A stretch of 55,061 bases of DNA, taken from IMG/VR virus record IMGVR_UViG_3300030109_000603, positions 1 to 55,061 of that record. One strand, given 5' to 3'. The notes beneath the pieces are model-generated. The model ran no database searches and had not been told where the DNA came from. It was given only the letters and a program-made list of their open reading frames with translations. The stretch comes from a virus. Of this stretch, positions 6,587-54,592 are shown piece after piece; the stretch's first letter is position 1, and every line of letters begins with the position of its first letter. Made by a program: the position numbers and the translations under genes.

Positions 6587-6701
6587 TCTTTCCTTTGTGT
6601 TTTTCTTTTCGTTTAGGTACAGGTTTTTTCTTATCAGGTATTACCTGTTGTTTATACTTAGGTTGCCTAAGATCTTTAGCCATTGGGTTAGGTTTTTTCA
6701 T
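6570..6701 (-). CDS. Small basic protein (43 aa)
   Basis: ATG at 6701 with GGAGAAAGGGTA upstream, stop TAG at 6570-6572. About a third of the residues are lysine or arginine, with motifs MKKPNPMAKDLRQPKYKQ and KRKEKHKGK. Short basic proteins of this look recur in marine phages as far as I remember. A nucleic-acid-binding role is plausible but unproven. It overlaps the integrase stop and the following gene's start. Confidence 0.6.
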   Translation of the reverse strand: MKKPNPMAKDLRQPKYKQQVIPDKKKPVPKRKEKHKGKSDERT

Positions 6702-7785
6702 TACCCTTTCTCCTATCTAATGCAGACTTAGCTGCAGCATAAGTATGCTTATGGTATGGATTAAGTGACGAGATATTCTGATGTCCTGTCACTGACATAA
6801 TAGCTAGATGATCTACCTCTGAGTCAATCATTTCCACAATGGCACTCTTTCGCAAGTCACCAACACGTAAGTCATCAGGTAGTTCAGCAGCAGCTTTAAC
6901 TTGGTTAGCGAGTACCGATACCTGACCAATGTTTAACGGCCTGTAAGCACCATCAGATGGCCTCTGGTGGGGAACTACATAGTCTTGGAACCCCCAATCT
7001 TTCTCCTGCTGAGTGAGCATCTCCATTATCTCGTCAGAGATGGGTAACTCTACCTCTGCCCCACGTTTAGTTTGTTTTATCTTAACCTTTTTATCTTTAA
7101 AGTTTATCGAAGACCACTTCAATAATCTTATATCAGTAGGTCTTTGCGCCCACTCATAGCACATCAATACAATCAGCCCTACATTACGCCAATCAAAATC
7201 AGTAAATGCAGTATCAAGAAACTTTTCTACCTGTTCTTGTGTCCATGTTGTATTCCTTGTTTCATGCTTTCTCTTACGAACTTTAGACATAGGGTTATAC
7301 ATAATTAAATCAATAGATATACAAAAATTTATTAGTAATGAAAATATTCTTGAACACTGATTCCCTTTTGACACACTCACACTTTCACACCATTCTTCGT
7401 AGGCTTCTGTGCAGTGTAAGGAAGTAAGATCTTTAATCTTAATATTACCTAGCTTCTTACTGCCTATGTTTGTGTTAGCAATAGCATCCATAGTATTATC
7501 ATAAGTTCTCTGTGAGTTGTATGCCAACTGTCTAAAGTGTGTAGTGGTCACATAGTATTTGTATATCTGCAATATCGTAGAGTTAGAGCCAATGTTACCT
7601 GCGACAATATCCCCACGTCTAAAGGCTTCTACCTTTTCTACTAGTCTAGGTATTTCATACCTAGCAGCCCTACCATCACGAAAGGTTTGTCTTTGTACAA
7701 CACCAGCATCAATGGCATCTTGTGGTGGCAAGAACTTCCATGCAGGGCCAGTCTTTAAGACTACCTTCTTAGTATATTTATACAT
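6688..7785 (-). CDS. int: Tyrosine recombinase / integrase
   Basis: A 365-residue protein with an N-terminal SAM-like core-binding domain (about 85-185) and a C-terminal catalytic domain. Catalytic residues visible: R215 (AQRPTDIRLLKW), R312 (GDLRKSA), H335 (TGHQ) and nucleophile Y344 (NPYHKHT), nine residues after H335 as expected. The His of the usual HxxR is Gly (G309-D310-L311-R312), which I think also occurs in some marine podophage integrases. It suggests a temperate lifestyle, or a relic of one, although the polymerase looks T7-like. A putative promoter and a 15-bp imperfect inverted repeat lie immediately upstream and may be the attachment site or an operator. Confidence 0.9.
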   Translation of the reverse strand: MYKYTKKVVLKTGPAWKFLPPQDAIDAGVVQRQTFRDGRAARYEIPRLVEKVEAFRRGDIVAGNIGSNSTILQIYKYYVTTTHFRQLAYNSQRTYDNTMDAIANTNIGSKKLGNIKIKDLTSLHCTEAYEEWCESVSVSKGNQCSRIFSLLINFCISIDLIMYNPMSKVRKRKHETRNTTWTQEQVEKFLDTAFTDFDWRNVGLIVLMCYEWAQRPTDIRLLKWSSINFKDKKVKIKQTKRGAEVELPISDEIMEMLTQQEKDWGFQDYVVPHQRPSDGAYRPLNIGQVSVLANQVKAAAELPDDLRVGDLRKSAIVEMIDSEVDHLAIMSVTGHQNISSLNPYHKHTYAAAKSALDRRKGNEKT

Positions 7786-14489: not shown

Positions 14490-14517
14490 TTGACTTCCCA
14501 TTTTAAAATAGTATAAC
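14490..14517 (+). promoter_or_regulatory. Rightward promoter next to the first late gene
   Basis: TTGACT (14490-14495), 16-bp spacer, TATAAC (14512-14517). The expected start point, about 14524, falls only a few bases before the GTG at 14531, so the transcript would be almost leaderless. AATAGTATAACTA is shared exactly with the promoter at 29736-29763. Confidence 0.7.
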
Positions 14518-17122: not shown

Positions 17123-17783
17123 TATACCGTACTTTAAAGCATGGGTAAGAAAAGAGTATACAAATAATTTAGAGGATTATCATGGAGAGTATCTCCACTG
17201 CATGGTCATTGGCGTCACTACTATGCCAAACAGGACTCTCAGCTTTCAAGTTATTTTTACTGGCTGCGAGTCTGACTTTGATGATGGTCCCAATATACAT
17301 GGTGGTGCGATGTGGGCTAGACTACCTCTTGTAGCTTTAGTTGCAGACACACCACTAGAAGAATGGCCCGAAGAATTACCACCTTATTTAGCCCAGCCTT
17401 GGGATTGCATGTCGCACACACACTCTGTGTATAAGTTAGAACGTGCAAGTCCTGCCCCTTGGATAGCAAAGGTAGATGGAAATTTTTATCCAGCTAAATA
17501 TTATTTTACTGTAGATTATACAGATAATGAAGTAGCTGATGATCCTGCACAACATAAACAATCTCATGTACTTGAGTTGTTAGACGCAGGTAAATACACT
17601 GGTAACATTGTTGCGTTGCCCAATAACAGAGTGAGAGTAACTCACCCAGCATGGTTTGAAGTAGGAGAAGGTGCTCCAGACTTTAAACCTAATCAACATA
17701 TATACAACTCGAAAGAAAACGTAGACTATGTTTGGGATACGCAACGAGTGTTTAATAATCTATACAGTGAGGAAGAATCATGA
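17103..17783 (+). CDS. Conserved hypothetical protein (226 aa)
   Basis: A soluble, acidic, beta-rich protein with several Trp and Pro (GGAMWARLPLVAL, PWDCMSHTHSVYKLERASPAPWIAKV). The composition fits a structural or virion-associated protein, but no family is recognised. It overlaps both neighbours slightly, in the same transcript as the small basic genes. Confidence 0.65.
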   Translation: MPYLTSSIPYFKAWVRKEYTNNLEDYHGEYLHCMVIGVTTMPNRTLSFQVIFTGCESDFDDGPNIHGGAMWARLPLVALVADTPLEEWPEELPPYLAQPWDCMSHTHSVYKLERASPAPWIAKVDGNFYPAKYYFTVDYTDNEVADDPAQHKQSHVLELLDAGKYTGNIVALPNNRVRVTHPAWFEVGEGAPDFKPNQHIYNSKENVDYVWDTQRVFNNLYSEEES

Positions 17784-18064
17784 TGAAGAAAAAAGGATAT
17801 GCTAAAGGTGGTATGCCTATGACCACAGTAAATGGTAAAAAAGTACCTAAGTTTGCAGCAGATGGAAAAGGTGCAAACGATATGAAAAAAGGTATGCGTA
17901 AAGGCGGCATGGCTAAAAAAGGTTATGCTAAAGGCGGTGCTATGATGAAAAAGAAAGCATACGCTAAAGGTGGTAAAGTAGCTATGTATAATCAGGGTGG
18001 CATGGTTAAGTCTACAGGAACAATTCCTACTGGAATTAACAACCCTAAAAATACTTATAAGTAA
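17780..18064 (+). CDS. Lys/Gly-rich KGG-repeat protein (94 aa)
   Basis: Contains at least four copies of (Y)AKGG-type motifs (KKGYAKGGMP, MRKGGMAKKGYAKGG, KKAYAKGG) and an NQGGMVK motif. It is highly basic and probably disordered. The same motif recurs in the virion proteins at 24058 and 41297 and at the end of the 91-residue protein at 19320, which suggests a shared binding partner. Confidence 0.7.
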   Translation: MMKKKGYAKGGMPMTTVNGKKVPKFAADGKGANDMKKGMRKGGMAKKGYAKGGAMMKKKAYAKGGKVAMYNQGGMVKSTGTIPTGINNPKNTYK

Positions 18065-18939: not shown

Positions 18940-18951
18940 TGCATAACGGGG

Positions 18952-18980
18952 TTGCAATATTATCTGTAGTATGTTATAAC
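18952..18980 (+). promoter_or_regulatory. Rightward promoter before the DUF1127 gene
   Basis: TTGCAA (18952-18957), 17-bp spacer, TATAAC (18975-18980), continuing TATAACTA as at 14512 and 29758. It serves the DUF1127 gene and the terminase cluster. Confidence 0.6.
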
Positions 18981-19025
18981 TAAATGTGTAAAACTACTCC
19001 TGCACAAATAAAAAGGAGTGGTGCT

Positions 19026-19166
19026 ATGTTAAAAAGAATATTTAAAAAGATTCAAGAGAATCAACAACGAAGAGCAGACTATTGGATACTCATGAACTTG
19101 AGTGATAAGGATCTGCACGATATGGGGATCAGTCGTGGCGAAATCAGGCAAAAAATCTACGGTTAA
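19026..19166 (+). CDS. DUF1127-domain small protein (46 aa)
   Basis: Start at ATG 19026 behind AAGGAGTGGTGCT; an upstream ATG at 18984 lacks a Shine-Dalgarno. The C-terminal half, LMNLSDKDLHDMGISRGEIRQKI, is a clear DUF1127 motif. The N-terminus is basic (KRIFKKIQ). In alphaproteobacteria, DUF1127 proteins are small Arg-rich regulators, some shown to bind RNA. On a phage, with its own promoter just before the terminase genes, it may reprogramme host RNA metabolism or copy a host regulator. That role is inference. Confidence 0.8.
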   Translation: MLKRIFKKIQENQQRRADYWILMNLSDKDLHDMGISRGEIRQKIYG

Positions 19167-19320
19167 TGCGGCAGGAAATTATACTAAGCCTACTATGCGT
19201 AAACGTCTTGTTGCATCCGTTAAAGCTGGCAGCAAAGGTGGAAAACCCGGACAGTGGAGTGCAAGGAAGGCCCAAATGGTCGCAAAACAATATAAAGCAA
19301 AAGGTGGGGGCTATAAGTAA
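19135..19320 (+). CDS. Small basic protein (61 aa), GTG start
   Basis: GTG at 19135 with GGGGA seven bases upstream, overlapping the DUF1127 gene by 32 bases. The product begins MAKSGKKSTVNAAGNYTK and ends GGKPGQWSARKAQMVAKQYK plus AKGGGYK. I recall near-identical endings in other marine phages. It probably binds nucleic acid, unproven. Confidence 0.6.
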   Translation: MAKSGKKSTVNAAGNYTKPTMRKRLVASVKAGSKGGKPGQWSARKAQMVAKQYKAKGGGYK

Positions 19321-19595
19321 TGGCCCTTGCTAAATCCCAAAAAAGTTTAAAATCTTGGACGAAACAAAAGTGGAGGACCAAGAGTGGGAAACCTAGTGCT
19401 AAAACTGGTGAACGGTATCTACCTGATAAGGCTATTAAGTCTCTTAGCGATGCTGAGTATGCCTCTACAACCAGAGCTAAACGAAAAGGCACTAAGGCAG
19501 GTAAGCAGCATGTGGCTCAACCTAAAAGCATTGCAAAGAAAACGAAACCCTTTAGAGCCTCTAAGGGTGGAATGGTAAGAAAGAAAAAGAAATGA
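19320..19595 (+). CDS. Conserved basic phage protein (91 aa)
   Basis: TAATG overlap upstream. Motifs SLKSWTKQKWRTKSGKPS and GERYLPDKAIKSLSDAEY look like those of small proteins found beside terminase in other marine phages. It ends with a KGG motif (RASKGGMVRKKKK). Function unknown. Confidence 0.65.
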   Translation: MALAKSQKSLKSWTKQKWRTKSGKPSAKTGERYLPDKAIKSLSDAEYASTTRAKRKGTKAGKQHVAQPKSIAKKTKPFRASKGGMVRKKKK

Positions 19596-19957
19596 GCCGT
19601 AATCTAACGGAAAAACAACAAAAGTTTCTTGATGTATTATTTGAAGAAGCTCAAGGTAATTTATCTCAGGCAAGAAAGTTGGCTGGGTATGCTGAGACTG
19701 TGGCAACTTCATCTATTGTAAATTCTTTACAAGATGAAATTGCAGATCTTACTAAACGGTTTATTGCATCTAGTGCTACTAAAGCTGCATATTCTATGAA
19801 ACAAATTATGGATAGTCCAACTGATTTGGGTAATAAAGAAAAAATGGCAGCAGCAAAAGATGTATTAGACCGCAGTGGATTTAAAGCATCTGATAGAGTA
19901 GAGGTTACCGCAGCAAGTCCTTTATTTATTTTACCGCCTAAAAATGAAGAAGATTGA
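19592..19957 (+). CDS. terS: Terminase small subunit
   Basis: The N-terminus LTEKQQKFLDVLFEEAQGN is the typical helix-turn-helix start of TerS proteins, followed by SQARKLAGYAE, a long helical middle and a VLDRSGFKASDRVEV region that fits terminase small subunits. It recognises the packaging site and recruits TerL. It overlaps its neighbours by 4 and 14 bases. Confidence 0.8.
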   Translation: MSRNLTEKQQKFLDVLFEEAQGNLSQARKLAGYAETVATSSIVNSLQDEIADLTKRFIASSATKAAYSMKQIMDSPTDLGNKEKMAAAKDVLDRSGFKASDRVEVTAASPLFILPPKNEED

Positions 19958-20354
19958 TAGAGTCTGGACATTACCTGCACCAAAGCCAGATGAAAAATTT
20001 GAGTGGAGAAAAGTTGTTAGGGTTGGCAGAGTAGTGCCTTTTGGGTATAGACAAGACCCTGATGATTGTGATATACTCTTACCTATCCCAGAAGAGCTAG
20101 ATCTCTTAGAGGAAGCTAAAAAATACCTAAGACAATATAGCTACAGAGATGTAGCAGCTTGGTTAACCGAAGAATCAGGTAGATATATATCTCATGTAGG
20201 TTTAATGAAGAGAGTTCAAATTGAGCGAAAACGTAAGAGAGAAGCTTCAAACCAACGCTACCTCGCTGAAAAATATAAAAAAGCCCTCGAAAAAGCGCAG
20301 AAACTTGAAGAAGAAAGACTTGGTGGAAAAGAAACCAGAGCCTCTTCAGATTGA
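19944..20354 (+). CDS. Hypothetical protein between terminase subunits (136 aa)
   Basis: An N-terminal beta segment, then a helix-turn-helix-like stretch YSYRDVAAWLTEESGRYISH, and a long basic coiled coil (KRKREASNQRYLAEKYKKALEKAQKL). The position between TerS and TerL and the likely DNA-binding fold suggest a packaging accessory. It overlaps TerL by about 30 bases at its 3' end. Confidence 0.65.
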   Translation: MKKIDRVWTLPAPKPDEKFEWRKVVRVGRVVPFGYRQDPDDCDILLPIPEELDLLEEAKKYLRQYSYRDVAAWLTEESGRYISHVGLMKRVQIERKRKREASNQRYLAEKYKKALEKAQKLEEERLGGKETRASSD

Positions 20355-21768
20355 ATATGCAGAAGAATTTAATACTAGGGAAGTTATTTTTGAGCCTAAT
20401 CCCGGTCCACAAACAGAGTTCTTAGCTTCTACTGAACAAGAAGTATTGTATGGTGGTTCTGCTGGTGGTGGTAAATCGTATAGTCTAGTAGCAGATCCTG
20501 TACGTTATTTAAATAACCCTAATGCTAGAATGCTTTTAGTACGTAGAAGTACTGAAGAACTAAGAGAACTTATCTCTGTATCTAAACAATTATACCCTAA
20601 AGCAATTCCCGGTATTAAGTTCATGGAAAGAGATAAGACTTGGGTAGCTCCGAGTGGAGCAACACTCTGGATGTCTTACTTGGATCGTGATGACGATGTG
20701 ATGCGATATCAAGGTCAGGCATTCAACTGGATCGGTTTTGACGAATTAACGCAATGGCCTACACCCTATCCTTGGAACTATATGAGGTCACGTCTTCGGA
20801 CAACCAAAGCCAGTGGACTACCTTTATATATGAGGGCAACAAGCAACCCCGGAGGTCCGGGCCATCAATGGGTAAAGAAGACTTTCATTGACCCTAATAC
20901 TCCTAATGAAGCTTTTTGGGCTACGGATACAGACAGTGGTGAAATTATATGCTGGCCTAAAGGTCATAGTAAAGAAGGTCAGCCCTTATTTAGACGTAGG
21001 TTTATCCCTGCTACCTTATTCGATAATCCTTATCTAGCAGAAGATGGTATGTATGAAGCTAATCTTTTGTCGTTACCTGAGCATCAGCGTAGGCAACTAT
21101 TAGAAGGTGATTGGGATATAAATGAGGGAGCAGCATTCCCTGAGTTTAATCGTAAAGAACATGTAATAGAATCATACGATATACCTAGTAGCTGGGCTAG
21201 ATTTAGAGCTTGTGACTATGGCTACGGTTCTCATACAGGAGTTGTGTGGATTGCAGTAACTCCAGCAGAACAGCTAGTTGTATACAGAGAAATGTATGTA
21301 TCTAAGGTTACTGCTACCGATTTAGCAGATATGATATTAGAAGCTGAAGATGGTGAGAAAATACGATATGGTGTTCTCGATTCTAGTTTATGGCATAATC
21401 GTGGTGATACTGGCCCATCATTGGCTGAACAAATGATTATGAAAGGTTGCCGTTGGAGGCCATCTGATAGATCTAGGGGATCTCGTGTAGCAGGTAAAAA
21501 TGAAATACATAGACGATTACAGATTGATGAATTTACAGAAGAACCTAGATTGGTATTTTTTAACAGTTGTGTCAATACCATTTCTCAGCTACCTGCCTTA
21601 CCTCTTGATAAAAATAATCCAGAGGATGTAGATACAAATGCAGAAGATCACTTGTATGATGCGTTGAGGTATGGTGTTATGACTAGACCACGTAGTAATT
21701 TATTTGACTTTGATTCAAATAATCACCGTACAGGGTTTCAAGTTTCAGATGCAACCTTTGGATATTAA
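20323..21768 (+). CDS. terL: Terminase large subunit
   Basis: The packaging motor: Walker A GGSAGGGKSY, Walker B IGFDELTQW, then a coupling-type TSNPGGPGH segment. The C-terminal RNase H-like nuclease has its acidic residues at RACDYGYGSH, YGVLDSSLWH and the final HLYDALRYG. The start is uncertain: the frame is open to 20221, but that would overlap the upstream gene by 134 bases. I choose GTG 20323 (about 481 residues), with TTG 20320 as an alternative. Confidence 0.93.
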   Translation: MEKKPEPLQIEYAEEFNTREVIFEPNPGPQTEFLASTEQEVLYGGSAGGGKSYSLVADPVRYLNNPNARMLLVRRSTEELRELISVSKQLYPKAIPGIKFMERDKTWVAPSGATLWMSYLDRDDDVMRYQGQAFNWIGFDELTQWPTPYPWNYMRSRLRTTKASGLPLYMRATSNPGGPGHQWVKKTFIDPNTPNEAFWATDTDSGEIICWPKGHSKEGQPLFRRRFIPATLFDNPYLAEDGMYEANLLSLPEHQRRQLLEGDWDINEGAAFPEFNRKEHVIESYDIPSSWARFRACDYGYGSHTGVVWIAVTPAEQLVVYREMYVSKVTATDLADMILEAEDGEKIRYGVLDSSLWHNRGDTGPSLAEQMIMKGCRWRPSDRSRGSRVAGKNEIHRRLQIDEFTEEPRLVFFNSCVNTISQLPALPLDKNNPEDVDTNAEDHLYDALRYGVMTRPRSNLFDFDSNNHRTGFQVSDATFGY

Positions 21769-23874: not shown

Positions 23875-24071
23875 GTCAACTAAAACTAGTCGTAAATAAT
23901 AAGCCACAGTGGGATGCAATGCTAGAAGAAATTTACTTTCGTATTGCATTCGCACATAAACAATTAGAACAATATGACGATCCTTCAGAAATATATCGTT
24001 TTCAAGGTGAGATTCGTGCATTAAGATCTTTGACTAAACTTAGGGATAAAATAAACAATGACCAATCTTGA
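23871..24071 (+). CDS. Small helical protein (66 aa), GTG start
   Basis: Overlaps the portal stop as GTGA. It is predicted all helical (WDAMLEEIYFRIAFAHKQLE, IRALRSLTKLRDKI). It probably takes part in virion assembly given its place between the portal and large virion genes. No family is recognised. Confidence 0.65.
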   Translation: MSQLKLVVNNKPQWDAMLEEIYFRIAFAHKQLEQYDDPSEIYRFQGEIRALRSLTKLRDKINNDQS

Positions 24072-27000
24072 TCAACAAATGAAAAAAGGTATGGGTTATG
24101 GTGAACTGATTGTAGATAATATACTTGGTTTAGATAACGAATATGAATCATTTGGTGAAAAATTAGGTAAAGCAATTAATGAGGATGAAATAGGATTCCT
24201 CAAAGATGCTGCTGTTGGTATCTATGAGGGGGCTAAAGAGTTTGTTACTAGCCCAATAGAAACAACTAAAGAAGTTATTACAAATATTAAAGACAGTGTA
24301 CAAAGGCTTGGTAGTGAAGATTTAGATACAAGACTACAAAGTATGTACGGTGTATCATACGATCAAGCTACAGATCAACAAGTAACTGCTGCAAGAGAAG
24401 CTGTTATTGGTGATGCTATGACTGCATTGGAATTAATTCCTGCAGCTAAGGCAGCAACAGTTACTGCAAAAGCAGCAAGCTCTGCTATACCTAGTGGAGT
24501 TAAAGCTGATATAGTAGGTCAAACCAAAGCAGTCTTTGGTGGTGACATGGAGTTTTTAAAAGGTACACCAACAGAACGTTCTGGTACTGTAGGTGTTGGT
24601 GCAGAAGTAGTTGGTCAAGATGATGTAAGTCTTGATGATATTACTGATTATATGGATTCAGAAGTAACACCTACTAAATCTAAAAAAGAAACAAACCCTT
24701 TAGTTAGAAGTGTAAATGCTAGTAATGTAGAGGTTCAAGCAGATTTAGCAGATTTTCGTAGTTCTGTTTTAGGTTCTTTAGACAATCTTGCCATTGGTAA
24801 AGATGGTATGTCTGGCTTTCAAATTAAAAAGTTTTTAGAAAAGAGAGCACCAAAAATAAATAAAACAGAATTGTATTGGTCAGGTCTTTTAGAAAACTTA
24901 GACGATAACAAAAAATATTCTAAACAACAATTAAAAACTCTTGCAGATAGAAATGTACCCAGAGTAGATATAGAAGTTCTTGATGGAAGTTATGCACGAT
25001 ATCGTGATCAGCAAAGAGTAGCTTTAAATGTTAATAACAATGTTATGCAGCCTTTAGATGGTTACAAAGAAATAGTTATTGTAAATAAAAATACTAAAGG
25101 AACTGAATACAGTGCAGGTCATTATGACATTATGTTTCAACCTGACGGTAATGTTTTAGCTCATGTAAGAGGTAGTTTTGTAGAAAATAATGAACCAGAC
25201 TTTCCAATAAAAGAAAAGTTTTTTCTTGTTGAAGAATTGCAAAGTGATGCTGTACAACAACATACGGTAGCAGATAAAGCAATTGCTAAGAAAATTAAAG
25301 AAGAAAAAGCATCTAAACCAACTTTAGGTGATATAGGTCTTCACTATCAAACAAAAATAAATGAAGCAGTTTTTGATTACCTTATGAACGGCCTTGAGTT
25401 TACGGATAAATTTATAAAAGATATAGATAGTTATAATTACCATTTTAGATATATAGGAGATCAAGACACTGCAGAGCAAGCTACACATTTAGGTTTAACT
25501 AATATCATAGATGATATGACAAGGTTAAAAAGTCGTTTCTTAGATGGTAATACTAGTAAAGATGCAATTGTATTGCAATTAAGTCAGAAATACGGTTTAA
25601 AAGAAAGATCAATTACAAGAAGAAGCATAGAAGAACTAGATGAAGTTGATAATATTTTTGCAAATGTTTTAGGTGATTATGTTTTTGGAAAGACTGCTGT
25701 AAGAAAATTTAATAAAGAAAATAATAATAAATTTAAAGAAGATTTAATAAACATCTTTAAAGGTATAAATATTGACACTGGTTTAGAAAAAGATTTAGTT
25801 CCAGCTAAATTATCTGATACAATTAGGATGTCTTTGCTTGCTGTAATTAGAGAATCTAAAAGTGAGGGTGTAAATAAAATATATATCCCTACCCCTGAAG
25901 TTATATCTAAAGCTCATGATTTAAGTTTAGAAGCTGCTAAAAATACCTATAGTGATGGGGTTAGAAAAGTTTTAAGAACACTTAATAATGAAACAAATGG
26001 TAAGATAAAATTTAAAAATAAAAATCCAGAGGGTATATCTTATTATGAAAATAAAGACGCAGTAGGAATAGAAATAGACATTACAGATTTTGATTTACCA
26101 GATAACCCACAGTTTAGATTTGATAGAGGTGGACTAGCTGTAAGTCAAACAGAACAAATGATGGGTATGCCTACTATGAGAGATCCTGCTGTCATAGATC
26201 CAACAACAGGACAACCGTATGATGCTTTAGGCTCTATGCGACAGCAAGCAGAACAAACTCGTCAAGCAGAAGTTAAAGAAGAATTTGAAAAGTTAAAACT
26301 TCCAGAAGATATTCAAGAAGAAGCTGAAGAAATTCTTAGACCTAAGTTAAGACCTGAAGGTTTACCTAATGTTTATGAAACTAAAACTGCAGTAGATAAA
26401 GTATTAGATTTAGGATATCTTTTAAAAGAAAAACAAAAAACTGGAGGTGGTCTTAGTAGAATTGTTTCTGGTTTAGATGAAAATAATCCTGTTCATCAAA
26501 AAATTATTAAAGGTTTTTTTGACAATGCAGTAGGTGGAGACACAGGATTTAATCCTACTAAAGACGCTTGGTGTGCTGCTTTTGTAAATCACGTACTTAC
26601 AGAACTTGGTGCAGACCTTATAAATTCTAAAGATCGTTATGATAGGATCAGAGCAAATAAATATAAAAACTATGGGCAGCCTGTAGATATTAATAATATC
26701 CAAGAAGGTGATATTGTTGTATTTGATTTTGATAAAGATGGTACTGCTGATCATGTAACTTTTTACGCAGGTGGTAGAATAACAAGTCAAGGTGAAGGTC
26801 AGTATATAAATGTAATTGGTGGTAATCAAGCTGGTGAAGTTTCTATAAGAGAAAATCATCCCTTGTATACATTAGATAATGTGGCTGCAATTAGAAGAAT
26901 TACTTATGATGGTGATGCATATGAAATAGCTCAAAGCCATAAAGATTCTGACCCAATATTTAAAACCTTCTTACCAGAAGAACATGAAGACTATGCCTTT

Positions 27001-28803
27001 AATTTACAAGGTAATTATAACAAAGGTGGAATGACTATGAATGGACAAATGGAAATGGCATTTATGCAAGATGGTGGATTAAAAGATGATGGGATGAAAA
27101 AAGATCCGATATCAGGTAATCCAATCCCTAATGGCTCTATGGCTAAAGAGGTGCGAGATGATATTCCTGCCCAACTGTCTGAAGGTGAGTATGTTGTACC
27201 TGCTGATGTCGTAAGATACCTTGGTGTAAAACACTTTGAGGATTTACGTGATAGAGCAAAAAGTGGCTTGCAGAATATGGAAGCAAATGGTAGAATAGGT
27301 GGAGAGCCAATTCCACCAATGCAACCACAGATGGCTGATGGTGGTGATCTTACTCCACAAGAAATGAATGAAATTACTAATATGATGAACCAAGGTGGTA
27401 TGGCTCGTAAAGGATACTATGGTGGTGGGTTTTCTAATACTGGTGGTGGTACTAGTTTTTATGATCCAGACCCTGCTAAAACTGCAAAAGCAATTGCTAC
27501 ACCAACAAAATATACTGGCTCATTTAGTAATGTAAATAGGCCAGTTGGTACAGGTACTGTTGTTCAAGATAGTCCTGTTACTTTGTATGGACCTAATGGA
27601 CAAGTAGTAACTGTACAGCTACCTTCACAACAAGAAGCTTATAATAATTATCTTACACAAGGTTATTCAACTACACCTCCGGGTACTACAAGTATTACAC
27701 AACCTCAAACAAGAAGCTCTAGTGATAGAGATGATGCTAAAGCAGAAAAGAAACGACTAGCTGATATGGTTGCAGAACAAGAAAGAGCTAGTCGAGTTGC
27801 AATATCAGATATGACTAAAGAACAAGCCCTTGAAGCATATCAAGGTGTAGAAATGGCTAAGTATGTTACTTCTGGTATGGTAGCTTTAAATCCAGCTATT
27901 GCTATTATTGGTAGACTATTTGCTGGTAATGAAAGCAAAAAAATTGAAGAACGTTTAAAAGAACTAGGTGTAACTGAATTACCAAAAGTTGACTATAAAA
28001 AAGGTGGTATAATAGGTAATATACTAGGTGGTAATAGTCTATTAGATGTATTAGATAATGCTATTACAGGACTACAAGAAGGTAAAATTGGTGCTGGTAA
28101 ATCTACATATGTAGCACAATTTAAACCTTCTAACTCTGGAGAGTATGGAAATAATTTGCAACAGTCTACAGGCAGTCTGTGGGGCAGTGAACAGGAAGCA
28201 TATGATCATGCAGTTAAAAGTGGTAACTATCATGTAGCAAATCACTTTGATGCTGTTAATCGTTTACGTGGTAAACAAAATAATTTTTATGAGTCAACTA
28301 AAGGTATGAGTAAAACTGCTGCATATGCTGAAGGACGTAAACTTGGACTATCTGTACATGACATGGATCAAGCATTTAAATATGGTGGTAGTTTAGGTAG
28401 AGCTATTTCTCAAGGTGTTGTTAAAAAAGAAGGTTTCTTTGGCACATATGAATTTATAGAAGGTAAAACAGTAGCTGATGTACAGGGTGGAACTACACCT
28501 GATCCTAGCAAACCTACAACTCCACAAGATAAAATTACTCCTGTTAAATCTGAGGATAATAATAAAGGACCATCTCATTCAGAGATTATGGCTCAACATA
28601 ATGCAATGAGAGAAAAAACTAAAAAAGCAGGTGAAACAGCACAAAAAAGTTTAGATACTTATAAAAAACAAACTGCAGGTCTTTCTAAATCAGATCAACA
28701 AAAAGAAGCAGAAAAAAGAACAGAGTCTGTTATAAGTGATATGCAAAGAGGAATACAACGAGGATTTAAAAAAGGTGGTTTAGCATCTAAACCTAAAAAA
28801 TAA
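24058..28803 (+). CDS. Giant virion protein with CHAP/NlpC-P60-like peptidoglycan hydrolase domain (1581 aa)
   Basis: The largest protein of the phage. Residues 1-200 are Ala-rich and helical; the middle is charged and partly disordered. A papain-like amidase domain spans about 815-950, with catalytic C839 (DAWCAAFVNH), NIQEGDIVVFDF and H899 (ADHVTFYAG), and then VIGGNQ. C-terminal to it are several KGG motifs (NKGGMTMNG, NQGGMARKG, YKKGGIIG, FKKGGLAS). It is probably carried in the virion to open the cell wall during DNA ejection, and its place between portal and scaffold agrees. The remaining segments are unrecognised. Confidence 0.75.
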   Translation: MTNLDQQMKKGMGYGELIVDNILGLDNEYESFGEKLGKAINEDEIGFLKDAAVGIYEGAKEFVTSPIETTKEVITNIKDSVQRLGSEDLDTRLQSMYGVSYDQATDQQVTAAREAVIGDAMTALELIPAAKAATVTAKAASSAIPSGVKADIVGQTKAVFGGDMEFLKGTPTERSGTVGVGAEVVGQDDVSLDDITDYMDSEVTPTKSKKETNPLVRSVNASNVEVQADLADFRSSVLGSLDNLAIGKDGMSGFQIKKFLEKRAPKINKTELYWSGLLENLDDNKKYSKQQLKTLADRNVPRVDIEVLDGSYARYRDQQRVALNVNNNVMQPLDGYKEIVIVNKNTKGTEYSAGHYDIMFQPDGNVLAHVRGSFVENNEPDFPIKEKFFLVEELQSDAVQQHTVADKAIAKKIKEEKASKPTLGDIGLHYQTKINEAVFDYLMNGLEFTDKFIKDIDSYNYHFRYIGDQDTAEQATHLGLTNIIDDMTRLKSRFLDGNTSKDAIVLQLSQKYGLKERSITRRSIEELDEVDNIFANVLGDYVFGKTAVRKFNKENNNKFKEDLINIFKGINIDTGLEKDLVPAKLSDTIRMSLLAVIRESKSEGVNKIYIPTPEVISKAHDLSLEAAKNTYSDGVRKVLRTLNNETNGKIKFKNKNPEGISYYENKDAVGIEIDITDFDLPDNPQFRFDRGGLAVSQTEQMMGMPTMRDPAVIDPTTGQPYDALGSMRQQAEQTRQAEVKEEFEKLKLPEDIQEEAEEILRPKLRPEGLPNVYETKTAVDKVLDLGYLLKEKQKTGGGLSRIVSGLDENNPVHQKIIKGFFDNAVGGDTGFNPTKDAWCAAFVNHVLTELGADLINSKDRYDRIRANKYKNYGQPVDINNIQEGDIVVFDFDKDGTADHVTFYAGGRITSQGEGQYINVIGGNQAGEVSIRENHPLYTLDNVAAIRRITYDGDAYEIAQSHKDSDPIFKTFLPEEHEDYAFNLQGNYNKGGMTMNGQMEMAFMQDGGLKDDGMKKDPISGNPIPNGSMAKEVRDDIPAQLSEGEYVVPADVVRYLGVKHFEDLRDRAKSGLQNMEANGRIGGEPIPPMQPQMADGGDLTPQEMNEITNMMNQGGMARKGYYGGGFSNTGGGTSFYDPDPAKTAKAIATPTKYTGSFSNVNRPVGTGTVVQDSPVTLYGPNGQVVTVQLPSQQEAYNNYLTQGYSTTPPGTTSITQPQTRSSSDRDDAKAEKKRLADMVAEQERASRVAISDMTKEQALEAYQGVEMAKYVTSGMVALNPAIAIIGRLFAGNESKKIEERLKELGVTELPKVDYKKGGIIGNILGGNSLLDVLDNAITGLQEGKIGAGKSTYVAQFKPSNSGEYGNNLQQSTGSLWGSEQEAYDHAVKSGNYHVANHFDAVNRLRGKQNNFYESTKGMSKTAAYAEGRKLGLSVHDMDQAFKYGGSLGRAISQGVVKKEGFFGTYEFIEGKTVADVQGGTTPDPSKPTTPQDKITPVKSEDNNKGPSHSEIMAQHNAMREKTKKAGETAQKSLDTYKKQTAGLSKSDQQKEAEKRTESVISDMQRGIQRGFKKGGLASKPKK

Positions 28804-29732: not shown

Positions 29733-29735
29733 CTA

Positions 29736-29763
29736 TTGACAAATAAAAAATCAATAGTATAAC
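29736..29763 (+). promoter_or_regulatory. Promoter for the major capsid transcript
   Basis: TTGACA (29736-29741), 16-bp spacer, TATAAC (29758-29763), just past the scaffold stop. AATAGTATAACTA is shared with the promoter at 14490-14517. It provides extra capsid mRNA. Confidence 0.75.
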
Positions 29764-29969
29764 TAGGGAGTATGAAACAAAAGCCTCTTGTGACTACCTT
29801 TTGTTTTATACTTATTTCCAATAAAGTCTAAACTAGGAAGAACTACCTGTTCGAGTATAGGCCCGTATGTTTAACGGTTGGCCGACTGTTAGCCTTACGC
29901 ACCCTAGAAAAGCAACAGCCTCTTATTGGTATTAGCTTTTAAGTAAGCCAACTATCAGGAGGATTTATT
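29764..29969 (+). other. Long structured leader of the capsid mRNA (about 200 nt)
   Basis: The gap between promoter and capsid gene has no convincing gene. It holds paired segments ACAAAAG / CTTTTGT (about 29778-29806) and AAAAGC / GCTTTT (about 29908-29941), and a tiny frame of 19 codons at 29772 (MKQKPLVTTF...). The capsid start has AGGAGG. A leader this long suggests RNA stability or translational control. A tRNA was looked for and not found. Confidence 0.5.
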
Positions 29970-31043
29970 ATGGCTTTTACAACTGCAGGGGGATACGGTA
30001 ACTTACCTAACGGTAATTTTAGTTCCGTAATCTACTCCAAAAAAGTACAACTTGCATTCCGCAAGAGTACTGTTTGTGGTGATATCACTAACTCTGATTA
30101 TTTTGGGGAAATTGCTGCCCAAGGTGATACGGTGAAAATCATCAAAGAACCTGAGATTTCAGTCTCGTCTTATGCACGAGGTACACAGGTTTCAGCACAA
30201 GATCTTGACGATGAGGATTTTTCTCTTGTAGTCGATAAAGCAAACTATTTTGCTTTTAAGATTGACGATATTGAGGAAGCTCACTCACATGTTAACTTTA
30301 TGGATCTTGCAACTAACCGTGCAGCATATCGTTTGGCTGACCAACATGACCAAGAAGTTCTTGGCTATTTGGCAGGTTTCAAACAGTCATCTTTGCACTC
30401 GCAAGCAGATACAGCTAATGACGTTGTAAACGGATCAAAAGCTGTTTCAACTGCTGGTTCTAACGAATTGCTTTCAAGTATGCAATTGAAAAAGGGTGAC
30501 TTCGGTAACATCACAACTGGTTCTGCTGGAGATCATTCGATCCCACTAGCAGCACGTTTGCCGGGTGCTACTGCACTACCAACTGCTACAGCTTCACCAG
30601 CAATGGTTGTTGCTCGTATGGCACGTCTACTTGATCAACAACAAGTTGATAAAGCTGGACGGTGGCTTGTAGTTGATCCAGTATTCATGGAACTTCTTGC
30701 TGACGAAGACTCACGTTTCTTCAATGCAGATTTCGGTGAATCAGGTGGACTACGTAATGGTCTTGTCTTGAATAACTTCCACGGTTTCCGTGTATACACT
30801 TCAAGCAATTTGCCAGCAGTAGGTACAGGACCGGGTACAACAGGTTCTGCAAACCAAAACACTAACTATGGTGTTATTGTCGCTGGTCATGATTCTGCAG
30901 TAGCAACTGCAGAGCAGATCAACAAAACTGAAACATATCGTGACCCTGACTCATTTGCAGACATTGTTCGTGGTATGCATCTATATGGTCGCAAGATCCT
31001 TCGTCCAGAAGCTCTTGTTAATGCCAAGTATAACGCAGCGTAA
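29970..31043 (+). CDS. Major capsid protein (357 aa)
   Basis: Starts MAFTTAGGYGNLPNGNFSS and contains the capsid-like stretches DTVKIIKEPEISVSSYARG and VDKANYFAFKIDDIEEAH, then NRAAYRLADQHDQEVLGYLA and RWLVVDPVFMELLADED. The layout is that of HK97-fold capsid proteins of marine podophages. It has its own promoter, a long leader and a strong AGGAGG site, as expected for the most abundant virion protein. The scaffold gene is immediately upstream. Confidence 0.92.
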   Translation: MAFTTAGGYGNLPNGNFSSVIYSKKVQLAFRKSTVCGDITNSDYFGEIAAQGDTVKIIKEPEISVSSYARGTQVSAQDLDDEDFSLVVDKANYFAFKIDDIEEAHSHVNFMDLATNRAAYRLADQHDQEVLGYLAGFKQSSLHSQADTANDVVNGSKAVSTAGSNELLSSMQLKKGDFGNITTGSAGDHSIPLAARLPGATALPTATASPAMVVARMARLLDQQQVDKAGRWLVVDPVFMELLADEDSRFFNADFGESGGLRNGLVLNNFHGFRVYTSSNLPAVGTGPGTTGSANQNTNYGVIVAGHDSAVATAEQINKTETYRDPDSFADIVRGMHLYGRKILRPEALVNAKYNAA

Positions 31044-41296: not shown

Positions 41297-44200
41297 ATGG
41301 GATTTTGGAGTGACTTATCAATGGGTTTAGGTGTAACACCTAAGACTCAAGACTATGTAGATCGTACAGCAAGAACAATTGAAAGAACTCAAGGTTCTAA
41401 TAATGCTAGTACTTATTCAAATCAAATGACTAATAAAGTTAATGAAAATACAGGTCAAAACTTTCAAAATAACTACACTCCTAGTGAAGGATCTCAAGCT
41501 GTTGTAAATCAATTTAATGATAATGATGACAACGATAGATCTACAACTACTACTACATCAACATCACAACCAGACAGATCAACAATGTTTGGTGGTAATT
41601 TAAAAGATTATTCATATTTAAATAATAATCGTTTTCAAGCAAATGATTTAACTAGCGATGGTAATATGGTTGGCTATTCAAAGTATGGTCAATCTGTAGG
41701 TTCTAGTATTATTATTACTCCAGAAGGAAAATATCAATTAAATCCTAGTGAGGCTGTTAAAGACAGGCTAGGTGTAGCTGCAACAGATTTTGATACATTA
41801 GACGAAGCATTTAATATGCTTGATAGATTTAATGATGAACCATCAAATACTTTTGCTAGATATAATGCAGCTATACAACAGGGTTTAGATGATACTAAAG
41901 CTAGTATCTATGCAAACAATACTAGTTTTGGTAATCCCTCAGAGGTAACTGATGATGATGTAGGAGAAATGCAAGGTCCAGTTTATGAACCTGACGATCT
42001 AGAGGGAACTAGTGAACCCGATACTTCTGAACCTTTTCGTAGAGAAGGTGTTAATTATGTTGAACATGATGGAAAGATGGTTCCAGAAGAAGTTAAAAAT
42101 GGTTTAGAAATGCTTGTTGGGCTTCGTGATACTGACCTAAGCTATGATGTTAATGGTGATGGTAAGGTTGATATGAACGATATCTTAGGGTTTATAAGAT
42201 ATGGCACAGGTTTAAGTCAAGATGAAGCTACTGAAACCTTTATGCAAAACTTTTATACACCAAAAGATGAACCAGAAGAAACTATAGTAGAACCTGAAGA
42301 GCCTGATGTTGGTGAAGTTATGGATGATGTAGAAGAACCTGAACCAGATCCTACACCAGAACCAGTAGTTCAACCAGAACCTCAACTAGAACCTCAACCA
42401 GAACCTCAACCAGTAGTTCAACCAGAGATAATAACTCGTCCTGTCGTATCAGGAACTGATGCAGTTTATAAACCATTGCCACAAACAGACAGTGGTACAT
42501 ATACTGCTACACCTTATGATCCTGCAACACCTACATATTCAATCCCTGCACAAGTACAGCCACAAACTACACAATTCAGTCCTCAGTATGTAGCTGGACC
42601 TGTACAACAAACCGTAAGTTTACCAACTGCAGGTACTCCAACAGGTCAAACTAGGACAATTATGTATAGAAATCAAAGAGGTCAACAAATACCAATAACA
42701 GAAATAGATGGTAAGCCTATGACTTATGTACCACCCGGATATACAAGAGTTGGGGCAAGCCAACCTTTTAATCAAGGTGGACCAGTTGGTTATGCAGAAG
42801 GTGGTGATACTAGTCTAGATGCAGAGTATAACTTAGCAACTAAATTTCTTGGTTATAAAGGGCCAAAATCTAGATCTTCACTTAATGATTTTATGGAAGC
42901 CAACCCCGGTGCTGCTGCTCGTATGGGTAAGTATCAACAAGCTATGAGAGGTATGTATAAAGGTGGGGTTGTATATGCTTATGAGGGTACAGATGTAGGA
43001 CTTACTGATGGTGGTACTGCAGATGCTGGTATCTCTGGTGAAGGTGATGAATACTACGACACAACATTACCACAGTTTTTTGATGCTGTTAGCCAGACTA
43101 TGCAGCCAATGCAGTCTACTTATTCTACTATTGGCTACGATCCTAATCAAGCTATAGCAGGTACTGCAGGTCAAGTAGGAACTTATGCTCCTACAGTTGA
43201 TGCTGCACAAGTAGGTAGGGTAGAACAAGCAACTACACCAACATATACCCCTACAGCAACTTACGGTGCAGCTACTACTGCAGGTCAAGTAAGAGATGAA
43301 ACTGGTCGGTTACAACCTGTTGCAGGTCAAGTAAGTCGTGAAGCTCAAGTAGATGCAGCACAAGGTAGGTCAACATTAGATATTAATGCAGCCCAAGGTA
43401 CTGCAACAATGATGACTAACCCTGTAACTAGGGAGATACAATCAGGTGAATTAATTAGTGGTGCTGCAGACGCTCAGAAGGCCGCTAAGTTCACTGAACA
43501 GATTCAGGCTGCTCAAGCTACCCCAAGTAAACAAGCCACTGTACAGGGCCAATTAGAAGGTCTTATGCAGCAGTTTGAAGGTGGTGATACACCTGCATGG
43601 GCTGCTGGTGCAATGCGTAATGCTATGGGAGCTATGGCTGCTCGTGGTTTAGGTGCTTCTAGCCTTGCTGGACAAGCTGCTGTACAGGCAGCAATGGAAT
43701 CAGCATTACCTATTGCTCAAGCTGATGCACAAACAATTGCATCTTTTGAAGCTCAGAACTTGTCAAACCGTCAACAACGTGCTATGCTTGCGGCACAACA
43801 ACGTGCTCAGTTTATGGGTCAAGAGTTTGACCAAGCATTCCAAGCACGGGTACAAAACTCTGCACGTATTGCTGACATAGCTAATATGAACTTTACTGCA
43901 GAGCAACAGGTAGCATTAGAGAACTCTCGTGCTGTTAATACAATGAACCTAGCTAACCTATCTAATAAGCAAGCAGGTATTATGGCTGAAGCTGCTGCTA
44001 TTGCTAACATGGATATGGCTAACTTAAATAATCGCCAACAAGCTGCAGTACAAAATGCTCAGAACTTTATGGCAATGGACATGTCTAATCTTGACAGAGC
44101 ACAACAGACTGCATTGTTTAGATCACAACAGAATATACAAGCAATGTTTACTGATCAAGCTGCTGAGAATGCTGCACTACAGTTTAATGCTTCAAGTGAA

Positions 44201-44692
44201 AATCAAACTAAACAATTCTTTGCATCACTGTCTAGCCAAACTTCACAGTTTAATGCAGCACAAACTAATGCAGTAAATCAGTTTAATGTAAATTCTGTTA
44301 ATGCTATCCGTGAGTTTAATGCTAACTTACAACAACAACGAGATACCTTTAATGCTACTAATGGTTTGGTCGTAGCACAAGCTAATGCTCAATGGAGACA
44401 AAACCTTGCTACATTAAATACTGCTGCTGCTAATGAAAGTAATATGGCTTTTGCTGCAGCTATTAATGGTATGACATCAAAGAATATTGATGCTATATGG
44501 CAACGTGAACGTGATCTAATGAGTTATAATATTACATCAGTAGAATCTGGTAAAGATCGTGCCTTACAAGTTCTTTTAGGTGAGCAAACACTAGAAGCAT
44601 TAAGAGAAAAAATTGGTTATTCAGAAGATGCAGCAGAGTCAGAGTTTATGATGAGATTTTTATTCGGTGATTTTGGGGATCTCTTCGATTAA
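41297..44692 (+). CDS. Large internal virion-like protein with EF-hand/dockerin-like loop (1131 aa)
   Basis: Asn/Ser-rich N-terminus. A calcium-binding loop DVNGDGKVDMND (D284-N286-D288...D295) sits in a dockerin-like setting. A Pro/Glu/Gln linker lies at about 340-375, with KGG-type motifs (FNQGGPVGYAEGG, MYKGGVVYAY) after it. The C-terminal 400 residues are Ala/Gln/Asn-rich heptad-like helices (QAAVQNAQNFMAMDMSNLD). Size, position and the helical half fit an internal or ejection protein forming a channel in the cell envelope. No family is recognised. Confidence 0.65.
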   Translation: MGFWSDLSMGLGVTPKTQDYVDRTARTIERTQGSNNASTYSNQMTNKVNENTGQNFQNNYTPSEGSQAVVNQFNDNDDNDRSTTTTTSTSQPDRSTMFGGNLKDYSYLNNNRFQANDLTSDGNMVGYSKYGQSVGSSIIITPEGKYQLNPSEAVKDRLGVAATDFDTLDEAFNMLDRFNDEPSNTFARYNAAIQQGLDDTKASIYANNTSFGNPSEVTDDDVGEMQGPVYEPDDLEGTSEPDTSEPFRREGVNYVEHDGKMVPEEVKNGLEMLVGLRDTDLSYDVNGDGKVDMNDILGFIRYGTGLSQDEATETFMQNFYTPKDEPEETIVEPEEPDVGEVMDDVEEPEPDPTPEPVVQPEPQLEPQPEPQPVVQPEIITRPVVSGTDAVYKPLPQTDSGTYTATPYDPATPTYSIPAQVQPQTTQFSPQYVAGPVQQTVSLPTAGTPTGQTRTIMYRNQRGQQIPITEIDGKPMTYVPPGYTRVGASQPFNQGGPVGYAEGGDTSLDAEYNLATKFLGYKGPKSRSSLNDFMEANPGAAARMGKYQQAMRGMYKGGVVYAYEGTDVGLTDGGTADAGISGEGDEYYDTTLPQFFDAVSQTMQPMQSTYSTIGYDPNQAIAGTAGQVGTYAPTVDAAQVGRVEQATTPTYTPTATYGAATTAGQVRDETGRLQPVAGQVSREAQVDAAQGRSTLDINAAQGTATMMTNPVTREIQSGELISGAADAQKAAKFTEQIQAAQATPSKQATVQGQLEGLMQQFEGGDTPAWAAGAMRNAMGAMAARGLGASSLAGQAAVQAAMESALPIAQADAQTIASFEAQNLSNRQQRAMLAAQQRAQFMGQEFDQAFQARVQNSARIADIANMNFTAEQQVALENSRAVNTMNLANLSNKQAGIMAEAAAIANMDMANLNNRQQAAVQNAQNFMAMDMSNLDRAQQTALFRSQQNIQAMFTDQAAENAALQFNASSENQTKQFFASLSSQTSQFNAAQTNAVNQFNVNSVNAIREFNANLQQQRDTFNATNGLVVAQANAQWRQNLATLNTAAANESNMAFAAAINGMTSKNIDAIWQRERDLMSYNITSVESGKDRALQVLLGEQTLEALREKIGYSEDAAESEFMMRFLFGDFGDLFD

Positions 44693-51866: not shown

Positions 51867-53774
51867 TTAGGTTATATCTACTATTTCACACACATCTCCA
51901 GTACATGCCATTGTTTGCATTGAAACTGTGTTGTCTTCACTTTCATATGCAGCAAGCTTAGTCCAATCAATTTTATCTGGCATACAAGATAACAAAGTTT
52001 TGTAATCGTGTTTACCTATCTCTTGATAGGGTGCTTGTTGATATGTGTGTTCATTATAAGGTAAGAAAGATACACCTGACATTTCATCAAAGTGCTCATA
52101 AACAAATGCACCTACCTCGAACCATTCTTCTTTTTTAACATTGATTGTAACACTAGGTTTATGTTCACACCAATGCCGTTGGTAAGTTAGCCACATTTCT
52201 AATTGCTCTATAGCAGTCATATCTGACGTTACGACAGAGCCTTTAGGCGACTGAACAGGAAAGCTGAATACTGTTGTTTGATCTGGCTTCATAACACAAG
52301 GCTCACTAGGTATCCTCTGATCAATCATAAACTGTGTTAGTGGATCTTTATTATCACCACGGACAGTACGGATATAATAGGAACTATGGCGAGCATGTAT
52401 GCCAGAGGAACTATCCACCAGTTGTGATACCGTTCCCGAAGGTTTGCAACATGTAATCGCAGTAGCAACAGGTATACCAAGACGGTCAGCCCATTCAGCA
52501 TTAGTAGAAATAGCAACGCTACGAAGATGTTCAAGAGTCTTATCCAATCCTTTATTCTTTTTAGTCATTAACGGGTTATCCATTATCCCTGTGAGTGACA
52601 CACCAAGCAGTCGTTCTTCTTCTGTATTTCTAGACCACACCTTTCGCAAGTAGGGGAATTTAGTGTATGTGGATTGGATAGTTCCCAGAATTGTTGCCAG
52701 ACGGACTTTTCGTTCAAGATCATCCAGACTGTCTGTGGCACGGACAACAACCTCTGTAAGATTACAGAACTGATATGGACGCAAAATGATTTCACTGCAT
52801 GGGTTAGTTCCAAACTCGTAGTCTGTATTACGTCTGCCATTTTTAGCAGCTTGTGTTTTACTTGCTTGACGGTTAAATACGCCACGTTCACCACTCCCTG
52901 ATTCTACTAATGCCATCCACTCTCGCATGAAAGATACAGCATCTGGTTTCTCTGTGTATGCCACAGAATTATTAGCTAAGGCACGTTGTGGATCATTCTC
53001 CCACCAAGCACCTGACTTAGCATGACGCATACGGTCATCGCTTAGATTAGATAGAGATATCATTGCTGATCTACGCACTCCACCTACTACAACTACCTCA
53101 CCAATCTTACACATGATGTCATGGCATTCAATGCTAGATAATTTACGTCCTTGTGCAGATCTAAATGTATTAGTTACAAAATTAAATAGATCTACAAGAG
53201 GTGCAGGGCCAGAGGCTCTACCACCAAATGTCTTTAGTTTAGCACCAGCAGGTCGAACTTTAGACACATCCCACTTGGGAACCTCACCACTATATAGGAG
53301 TGCAATCAATTGTCTAAGACCCTTAGCCCAAGCTTCCTTGGAGTCACCAACAACAATAGTAGTCTCACTGTCGAACAAGTCAGGAACCTCTGGGAGCTTG
53401 CTGATGAACTGCCGTTCAACACTGAAGCCGACACCAGTACCACAGAGAAGGACGAACATAGCTTCATCGAAGGACTTAGGGTCATCTACGGGTAGATAGC
53501 TACAGTTATACATACAAGTGTTATCACGGTTAGCAGCAGGACCAGCAGTCATCATTGCTCTCATAGATGGCATAACTTCTAGACCAAGGATAGCTTGCTC
53601 TATTTCTTCTGCAGTATGTGGGTTATCATCATTAATAACTGGCCCGACAATATTATCTACATAACGAGATACTGTTTCATCCCATGTTTCTCTTCGTCCT
53701 TCTTCTTCTAGCCATCGTGCATATCGTGAGGTATGAATGAATGCTTGATAGTCTGTTGGTAAATAGTTGTTCAT
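51867..53774 (-). CDS. Class II (adenosylcobalamin-dependent) ribonucleotide reductase, monomeric type
   Basis: Reduces ribonucleoside triphosphates to deoxy forms using vitamin B12, independent of oxygen. A 635-residue protein of the Lactobacillus RTPR type. Active-site residues: C91 (MYNCSY) and the NPCSE motif with C326 (thiyl radical) and E328, then C337 (QFCNL), exactly 11 residues after C326 as in the reference enzyme. The C-terminal pair CTGDVC re-reduces the active site. It lies with MazG, ThyX and DUF3310 in the leftward arm. The host must take up or make cobalamin. Confidence 0.95.
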   Translation of the reverse strand: MNNYLPTDYQAFIHTSRYARWLEEEGRRETWDETVSRYVDNIVGPVINDDNPHTAEEIEQAILGLEVMPSMRAMMTAGPAANRDNTCMYNCSYLPVDDPKSFDEAMFVLLCGTGVGFSVERQFISKLPEVPDLFDSETTIVVGDSKEAWAKGLRQLIALLYSGEVPKWDVSKVRPAGAKLKTFGGRASGPAPLVDLFNFVTNTFRSAQGRKLSSIECHDIMCKIGEVVVVGGVRRSAMISLSNLSDDRMRHAKSGAWWENDPQRALANNSVAYTEKPDAVSFMREWMALVESGSGERGVFNRQASKTQAAKNGRRNTDYEFGTNPCSEIILRPYQFCNLTEVVVRATDSLDDLERKVRLATILGTIQSTYTKFPYLRKVWSRNTEEERLLGVSLTGIMDNPLMTKKNKGLDKTLEHLRSVAISTNAEWADRLGIPVATAITCCKPSGTVSQLVDSSSGIHARHSSYYIRTVRGDNKDPLTQFMIDQRIPSEPCVMKPDQTTVFSFPVQSPKGSVVTSDMTAIEQLEMWLTYQRHWCEHKPSVTINVKKEEWFEVGAFVYEHFDEMSGVSFLPYNEHTYQQAPYQEIGKHDYKTLLSCMPDKIDWTKLAAYESEDNTVSMQTMACTGDVCEIVDIT

Positions 53775-54320: not shown

Positions 54321-54358
54321 ATCGGAAACTCCTAGTTATACTCATTTAGAACTCCATG

Positions 54359-54592
54359 TCAATCTTCAAATTCGAGTTCTATTGGCTCAATATTTTTTTG
54401 AAAATATTTTACCATTTCGTAAGCGTCATTAAAGCTATCGAAAAAATATTCCATTGACTCTACCTTGCCATCAATCTCTATCTTACACAAATTAAAATGC
54501 ACATCTTCTACACCGGGAAGATCACATGGGTACGGCCCTGATATAACATCCCAAATCTTAACTTGTTTATTTCTAAGGTCACTGTTTGTCAT
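54359..54592 (-). CDS. Hypothetical acidic protein (77 aa)
   Basis: ATG at 54592, overlapping the nuclease gene by 14 bases. Acidic, with VHFNLCKIEIDGKVESMEYF and a helical end. No family is recognised. Confidence 0.6.
   Translation of the reverse strand: MTNSDLRNKQVKIWDVISGPYPCDLPGVEDVHFNLCKIEIDGKVESMEYFFDSFNDAYEMVKYFQKNIEPIELEFED

Follow-up and report, generated by a model that had tools for sequence, protein, structure and literature searches.

A predicted promoter-in-hairpin leader ahead of the DUF1127 gene of HMO-2011-type marine phages

The window analysed here is the whole of one virus record, 55,061 bp in length, and the DUF1127 gene that it carries would be the first gene of the packaging/portal stretch, standing behind a promoter-in-hairpin switch. 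We consider it probable, on balance, that this switch times translation of the gene, the Shine-Dalgarno sequence (SD) being closed in long RNA and open in RNA that starts at a local promoter, P2. Computation supports the identity of the gene, the selection acting on it, its synteny, a co-varying helix over its SD, a -10 box in one arm of that helix and a conserved box nearby. The leader, conserved and readable in the sequence itself, yields a model, specific and open to testing, of the moment at which one phage gene is translated; it implies that untimely production of DUF1127 would be costly to the phage, and leader and gene together offer a natural setting in which to study the function of DUF1127 proteins.

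The gene lies at 19026..19166 on the plus strand, and its 46-residue translation, MLKRIFKKIQENQQRRADYWILMNLSDKDLHDMGISRGEIRQKIYG, scores 29.9 bits against the Pfam family PF06568 (DUF1127), whose gathering cut-off is 23.3; the match has E 4.7e-7 and covers 36 of the 37 profile positions. The original prediction had recognized a clear DUF1127 motif in this protein and had named the failure of a profile search as a possible refutation; the search returned DUF1127, above the Pfam cut-off. Every one of the 40 proteins in our alignment A3 hits the family with E <= 0.01. A comparison of 47 distinct viral DUF1127 sequences gives a pN/pS of about 0.24, so the reading frame is under purifying selection. 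The predicted fold consists of three helices (mean pLDDT 90.8), and a Foldseek search found no solved structure in the PDB that matches it (best E 4.9). Host DUF1127 proteins, such as the SDPs of A. tumefaciens, E. coli YjiS and R. sphaeroides CcaF1, have the same domain and are also small and basic, and the core LSD-(R/K)-(E/D)-L-x-D-(I/M)-G is common to phage and host members. However, the phage proteins form a group of their own, 35-48% identical to the host proteins with which they were compared, and are set apart from them by a first helix of the QQRRADYW type. Viral sequences also cluster (82/87) in a protein tree of low resolution, which was built from few columns and in which two viral proteins, L100 and L101, are labelled as host. 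The window gene is thus a phage-lineage member of DUF1127.

The large terminase subunit (TerL) of the window, at 20221..21768 on the plus strand (phrog_979, E 4.7e-61; exact start uncertain), is 83.5% identical to that of Roseobacter phage CRP-13 and 66.6% identical to that of Puniceispirillum phage HMO-2011, and because of these identities the window is assigned by sequence to the HMO-2011-type phages, a widespread and dominant group of marine phages (PMC9038755). Besides the related terminase and portal, the latter of SU10 type by its Pfam profile match, genome size and gene content are similar as well, and Roseobacter-like hosts are proposed. The genome further carries a ribonucleotide reductase gene (51867-53774, minus strand) that resembles the RTPR family of adenosylcobalamin-dependent enzymes (E 1.1e-90, a little short of the curated cut-off), and a tyrosine recombinase/integrase-like gene (6688-7785, minus strand), owing to which the phage may be capable of lysogeny. 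A small Lys/Gly-rich protein with KGGM/KKGYAKGG repeats is encoded at 17780-18064, and similar [KQ]GG stretches are present in two large predicted structural proteins (24058-28803 and 41297-44692).

Downstream of the DUF1127 gene, and overlapping its 3′ end, follows a 61-aa gene with a GTG start (19135..19320, plus strand; phrog_17747, E 1e-32), then another small Lys-rich frame (19320-19595), and then the small terminase subunit TerS (19592..19957, plus strand; phrog_2538, E 2.6e-7; Pfam Terminase_2, E 4.9e-5, just under the cut-off). The placement just before the terminase genes that had been given for DUF1127 is therefore right, with two small Lys-rich frames, 19135-19320 being likewise Lys-rich, intervening before TerS. 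The arrangement recurs in relatives, as the proposed search for DUF1127 beside terminase in phages confirmed. By tblastn the gene was found in 10 Roseobacter CRP phages, with CRP-9 gp62 as a further member, and it occupies the same position upstream of TerS/TerL in 11 of 11 listed HMO-2011-type Roseobacter CRP phages, where it is mostly annotated as a hypothetical protein and, in CRP-603, as DUF1127. A scan of viral contigs with the DUF1127 family yielded 274 confirmed loci, 80 of which we retained, and a separate IMG/VR scan, based on TerL and hence without selection for DUF1127, counted loci with at least 1.5 kb upstream and recovered the gene in 54 of 56; the two TerL relatives without it lack the leader box too. 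There is no DUF1127 gene beside the terminase of HMO-2011, of the Pelagibacter phages HTVC033P and HTVC115P or of ctYwJ313, nor in the terminase neighbourhood of the Rhizobium and Sinorhizobium TerL relatives. Methylophilales phage Melnitz and Sinorhizobium phages phiM12 and Phosso also encode DUF1127-like proteins, some Melnitz copies carrying that annotation, although these are weak matches (E 4-9) in genomic contexts that differ from that of the window. Among the papers searched, none of those that mention DUF1127 together with phage describes a phage DUF1127 gene in its title or abstract, and the main texts of those on HMO-2011-type isolates mention neither the gene family nor any promoter.

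The gene has a good SD (GGAG, 19015-19018), and this SD is part of an inverted repeat whose left arm, ACTACTCCT, spans 18993..19001 and whose right arm, AGGAGTGGT, which contains the SD, spans 19014..19022, both given on the plus strand. The original prediction included neither this hairpin nor the second -10 box that it contains, both being located a short way upstream of the stretch covered there. An inverted repeat with the SD in its right arm was present in all 8 phage leaders first examined. Between relatives the arm sequences differ and the pairing is kept, as in ACTATCTCC/GGAGATAGT, ACTACCTC/GAGGTAGT and ATAATTACCT/AGGTAATTAT, with complementarity likewise retained in TGGTATAACT/AGTTATACCA and AAACTCTCCTTAGT/ACTAAGGAGAGTTT, and several different compensating changes are visible between the arms. 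The leader set, including the TerL-selected loci, comprises 107 distinct leaders, 105 of them scorable; CRP-2 and CRP-603 were left out of the counts on 105 leaders, as the start used gave no SD in range, and on visual inspection ATGTTC pairs with GAACAT around their start. In a MAFFT alignment of the joined arms the registers shift between clades, and a count of structure pairs for which only three pairs were specified was uninformative; an arm-swap test was used instead. Own arms pair at -10.98 kcal/mol vs -8.17 +/- 0.24 for swapped arms, and none of 20,000 swaps was as good; the leaders are related and not fully independent, so that the number of separate events is overstated, and the result is unchanged with one leader per left-arm core. 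It was reproduced in 34 new leaders found by TerL rather than by DUF1127. In many relatives the helix covers the start codon as well as the SD. An Rfam search of the window returned nothing.

A dyad that overlaps a promoter could also act at the DNA level, as an operator to which a dimeric regulator of that promoter binds, rather than as an RNA helix. Yet the arms are separated by widely differing distances, about 12 to 30 nt or more, they stay complementary as their sequences change, and one arm always includes the SD; variable spacing and covariation led us to reject this reading, to which we assign very little probability. It would also be conceivable that an ordinary promoter and a 5′ hairpin that merely stabilises the mRNA precede an unimportant passenger gene, given that stabilising 5′ hairpins exist in phages and that the gene is not seen at the equivalent place in HMO-2011 and the Pelagibacter phages. 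However, the other SD sites of the same genomes are mostly open (mean unpaired probability 0.55 for the window, 0.54 for related loci) and the helix specifically covers that of DUF1127, which is the most buried of 29 SDs in the window (0.00 against the mean of 0.55), the hairpin ranking first as an SD-blocking stem across the 30 starts that have an SD. In addition, the gene is under purifying selection, and gene and leader are kept or lost together. A passenger gene, or a chance helix, was accordingly rejected on the SD controls, the shuffling of upstream sequence and pN/pS, and we regard it as improbable. Burial of this kind is less complete in phiM12 (0.25) and Melnitz (0.22) than in the HMO-2011-type leaders. 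Host DUF1127 leaders give mixed values of SD closure, and the Bradyrhizobium ones examined are GC-rich, with a match that is not at an obvious gene start. Elsewhere in the window, a gap of about 237 nt (29733-29969) with a strong promoter site precedes a 357-aa frame at 29970, by its position probably the major capsid gene, and forms a structured leader in which the SD is also largely buried (0.03).

Directly after the stop codon of the upstream gene stands a conserved box, GCATAACGGGGTTGCAA(T), at 18942..18958 on the plus strand, a candidate activator site and/or the -35 element of a promoter, P1. The box GCATAACGGGGTTGCAAT, just ahead of the promoter region, is kept in most leaders, including those without P1; CGGG-N-[TA]TGCA is found in 35 of 47 non-redundant leaders vs 0.000 in shuffles, and the CGGGGTTGCAAT part of the box has one exact copy in the window. 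P1 itself, at 18952..18980 on the plus strand, is read from sequence and conservation as TTGCAA, 17 nt and TATAAC, with TGn before the -10 box, and TTGCAN-17-TATAAC is present in 51 of the 107 leaders (non-redundant 19/47, vs 0.000 in shuffles). The P2 -10 box, in the window of TAAAAC form, lies at 18989..18994 on the plus strand and overlaps the left arm, with a predicted start near 19001. Where both promoters are present it is 14-15 nt downstream of that of P1. Among the 105 leaders its hexamer is TATAAC in 69, TAAAAC in 27 and TATAAT in 9, all of sigma70-like appearance, and all 47 of the 47 non-redundant leaders have a -10 hexamer where one is expected, vs 0.13 in shuffles. The window by itself gives a signal at chance level: a consensus promoter scan listed neither P1 nor P2, and TTG-N20-TATAAC occurs once vs 1.28 times expected. 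The case for a promoter of the gene's own, which had been claimed for the window, is for this reason made, and made convincing, by conservation across leaders. In the window P1 (TTGCAA-17-TGTTATAAC) looks stronger than the TAAAAC form of P2, which is not a private defect of the window since it is kept in 27 leaders. Exact copies of TTGACN17TATAAC at 14490-14517, 29736-29763 and 54335-54362 (minus strand) each stand before a gene, two of them in clear intergenic gaps, and look like the general sigma70-type promoters of the phage. In two relatives (L070 and L064) a further promoter-like site, GTTATAACTACATAT, precedes the ATGs at 3915 and 3179 by about 120 nt; this site, downstream of DUF1127 and near the terminase genes, belongs to some relatives only.

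RNAs with different 5′ starts were folded, with the predicted probability that the SD is unpaired as the readout. Averaged over the 105 leaders, this probability is 0.04 when the RNA reads through and 0.06-0.14 when it begins between -20 and +5 relative to the P2 -10 box, and it then rises to 0.56 at +9 and 0.76-0.85 at +10 to +15, the interval in which bacterial transcription is expected to start relative to a -10 box. The 45 non-redundant leaders give 0.06 for read-through vs 0.81 for the P2 start, and shuffling of the upstream sequence gives 0.44. Some leaders are by prediction only partly closed, for example CRP-345 (0.43). In the window the values are 0.00 in read-through and P1 RNA and 0.86 in P2 RNA. 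Read-through RNA is to be expected, since the genes upstream of DUF1127 lie on the same strand, no terminator-like site on the plus strand is listed between 15000 and 19000, and rightward promoter-like sites are present upstream at 14490 and 15817. RNA reading in from these promoters would hold both arms and bury the SD, and DUF1127 would be poorly translated from it. With the P2 -10 box in the left arm, or downstream of the arm in some clades, P2 RNA would be without the arm and its SD open, so that the protein would be made mainly once P2 fires, perhaps with the help of a factor at the adjacent conserved box. The use of P2, the exact start sites and the timing are what we infer here; the leader architecture makes controlled expression of DUF1127 likely, and late timing is suggested by position and leader.

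Two features of the window count against the switch: its P1 RNA is predicted to be closed, and its P2 is of the weaker TAAAAC form. A rival reading is that the closed hairpin belongs to the main mRNA, made from P1, and is opened or stabilised in trans, whether by DUF1127 as an RNA-binding autoregulator, by temperature, by a ligand or by ribosome availability, P2 then being no promoter at all. In its favour, 51 of 107 leaders have a well-formed P1, whose RNA is predicted to be closed, RNA binding is known for a Rhodobacter DUF1127 protein (PMC12501420), and a Sinorhizobium DUF1127 gene has structured-leader control, though in the form of uORF-dependent attenuation (PMC12218461). Nevertheless, about half of the leaders have no P1 and in these P2 and the helix persist; in the CRP-235, CRP-738, L075 and L098 types the left arm is wholly upstream of the only -10 box, so that local RNA cannot contain it; and the arms and loop do not show the sequence conservation expected for a protein or ligand site. 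We hold opening in trans to be unlikely, and prefer the switch at P2. A more elaborate form of the switch, in which P1 RNA is closed, P2 RNA is open and a phage or host factor at GCATAACGGGGTTGCAAT chooses between them, so that a host-mimicking DUF1127 is released at a single point during infection and acts on phosphate signalling or RNA turnover in the host, is a speculative proposal that we would not expect to hold in full; if true, it would mean that a T4-like timing device arose independently in abundant marine phages and controls a host-takeover protein.

As to what the protein may do, host DUF1127 proteins of Agrobacterium and E. coli have been shown to bind the sensor kinase PhoR and to lower the expression of phosphate-uptake genes, and the Rhodobacter protein CcaF1 binds RNA, whereas Salmonella YjiS shows no RNA binding (PMC12501420; PMC11707872). 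By analogy, the phage protein is most likely a small basic adaptor acting on a host regulator, as the host proteins do on PhoR or RNA. Kinase-type protein binding, itself well short of an even chance, is placed only slightly ahead of RNA binding, because a dampened Pho response would not be an obvious benefit for a marine phage, and the rest of the probability falls to other modes of action. It had been suggested that the phage copy redirects host small-RNA or mRNA metabolism; the DUF1127 identity (PF06568), the own promoter (by conservation) and the packaging-gene neighbourhood (by synteny) on which this interpretation was built have stood, and the RNA-redirecting role itself may hold by analogy.

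Known leaders offer two comparisons. In S. meliloti, duf1127_1 is subject to Rho-dependent transcription attenuation via an upstream ORF in its leader (PMC12218461); both it and, by prediction, the phage gene are DUF1127 genes under mRNA-leader control, although the phage leader differs in burying the SD with a promoter in the arm and has no conserved upstream ORF that we could see. Closer is phage T4, where the long RNAs of genes e, soc, 49 and I-TevI have the SD and/or start codon buried in a helix, and a promoter within the stretch encoding the 5′ arm yields local transcripts that are without the arm and are translated (PMC3014915). By prediction the DUF1127 leaders would have this layout too, with long transcripts closed and those from the local promoter open. 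T4 uses gp55-dependent late promoters (TATAAATA), whereas the DUF1127 leaders have sigma70-like TATAAC/TAAAAC/TATAAT -10 boxes, and the T4 effect was shown by experiment, whereas the phage DUF1127 leader is known here from sequence and predicted folding. The gene is a different one and the phage group is unrelated to T4, and we found no report of a T4-like hairpin timing device in HMO-2011-type Roseobacter viruses. The DUF1127 leader thus appears, from its sequence, to be a variant of T4 promoter-in-hairpin control that is new for HMO-2011-type phages, suggesting that phages unrelated to T4 arrived at a T4-type solution a second time.
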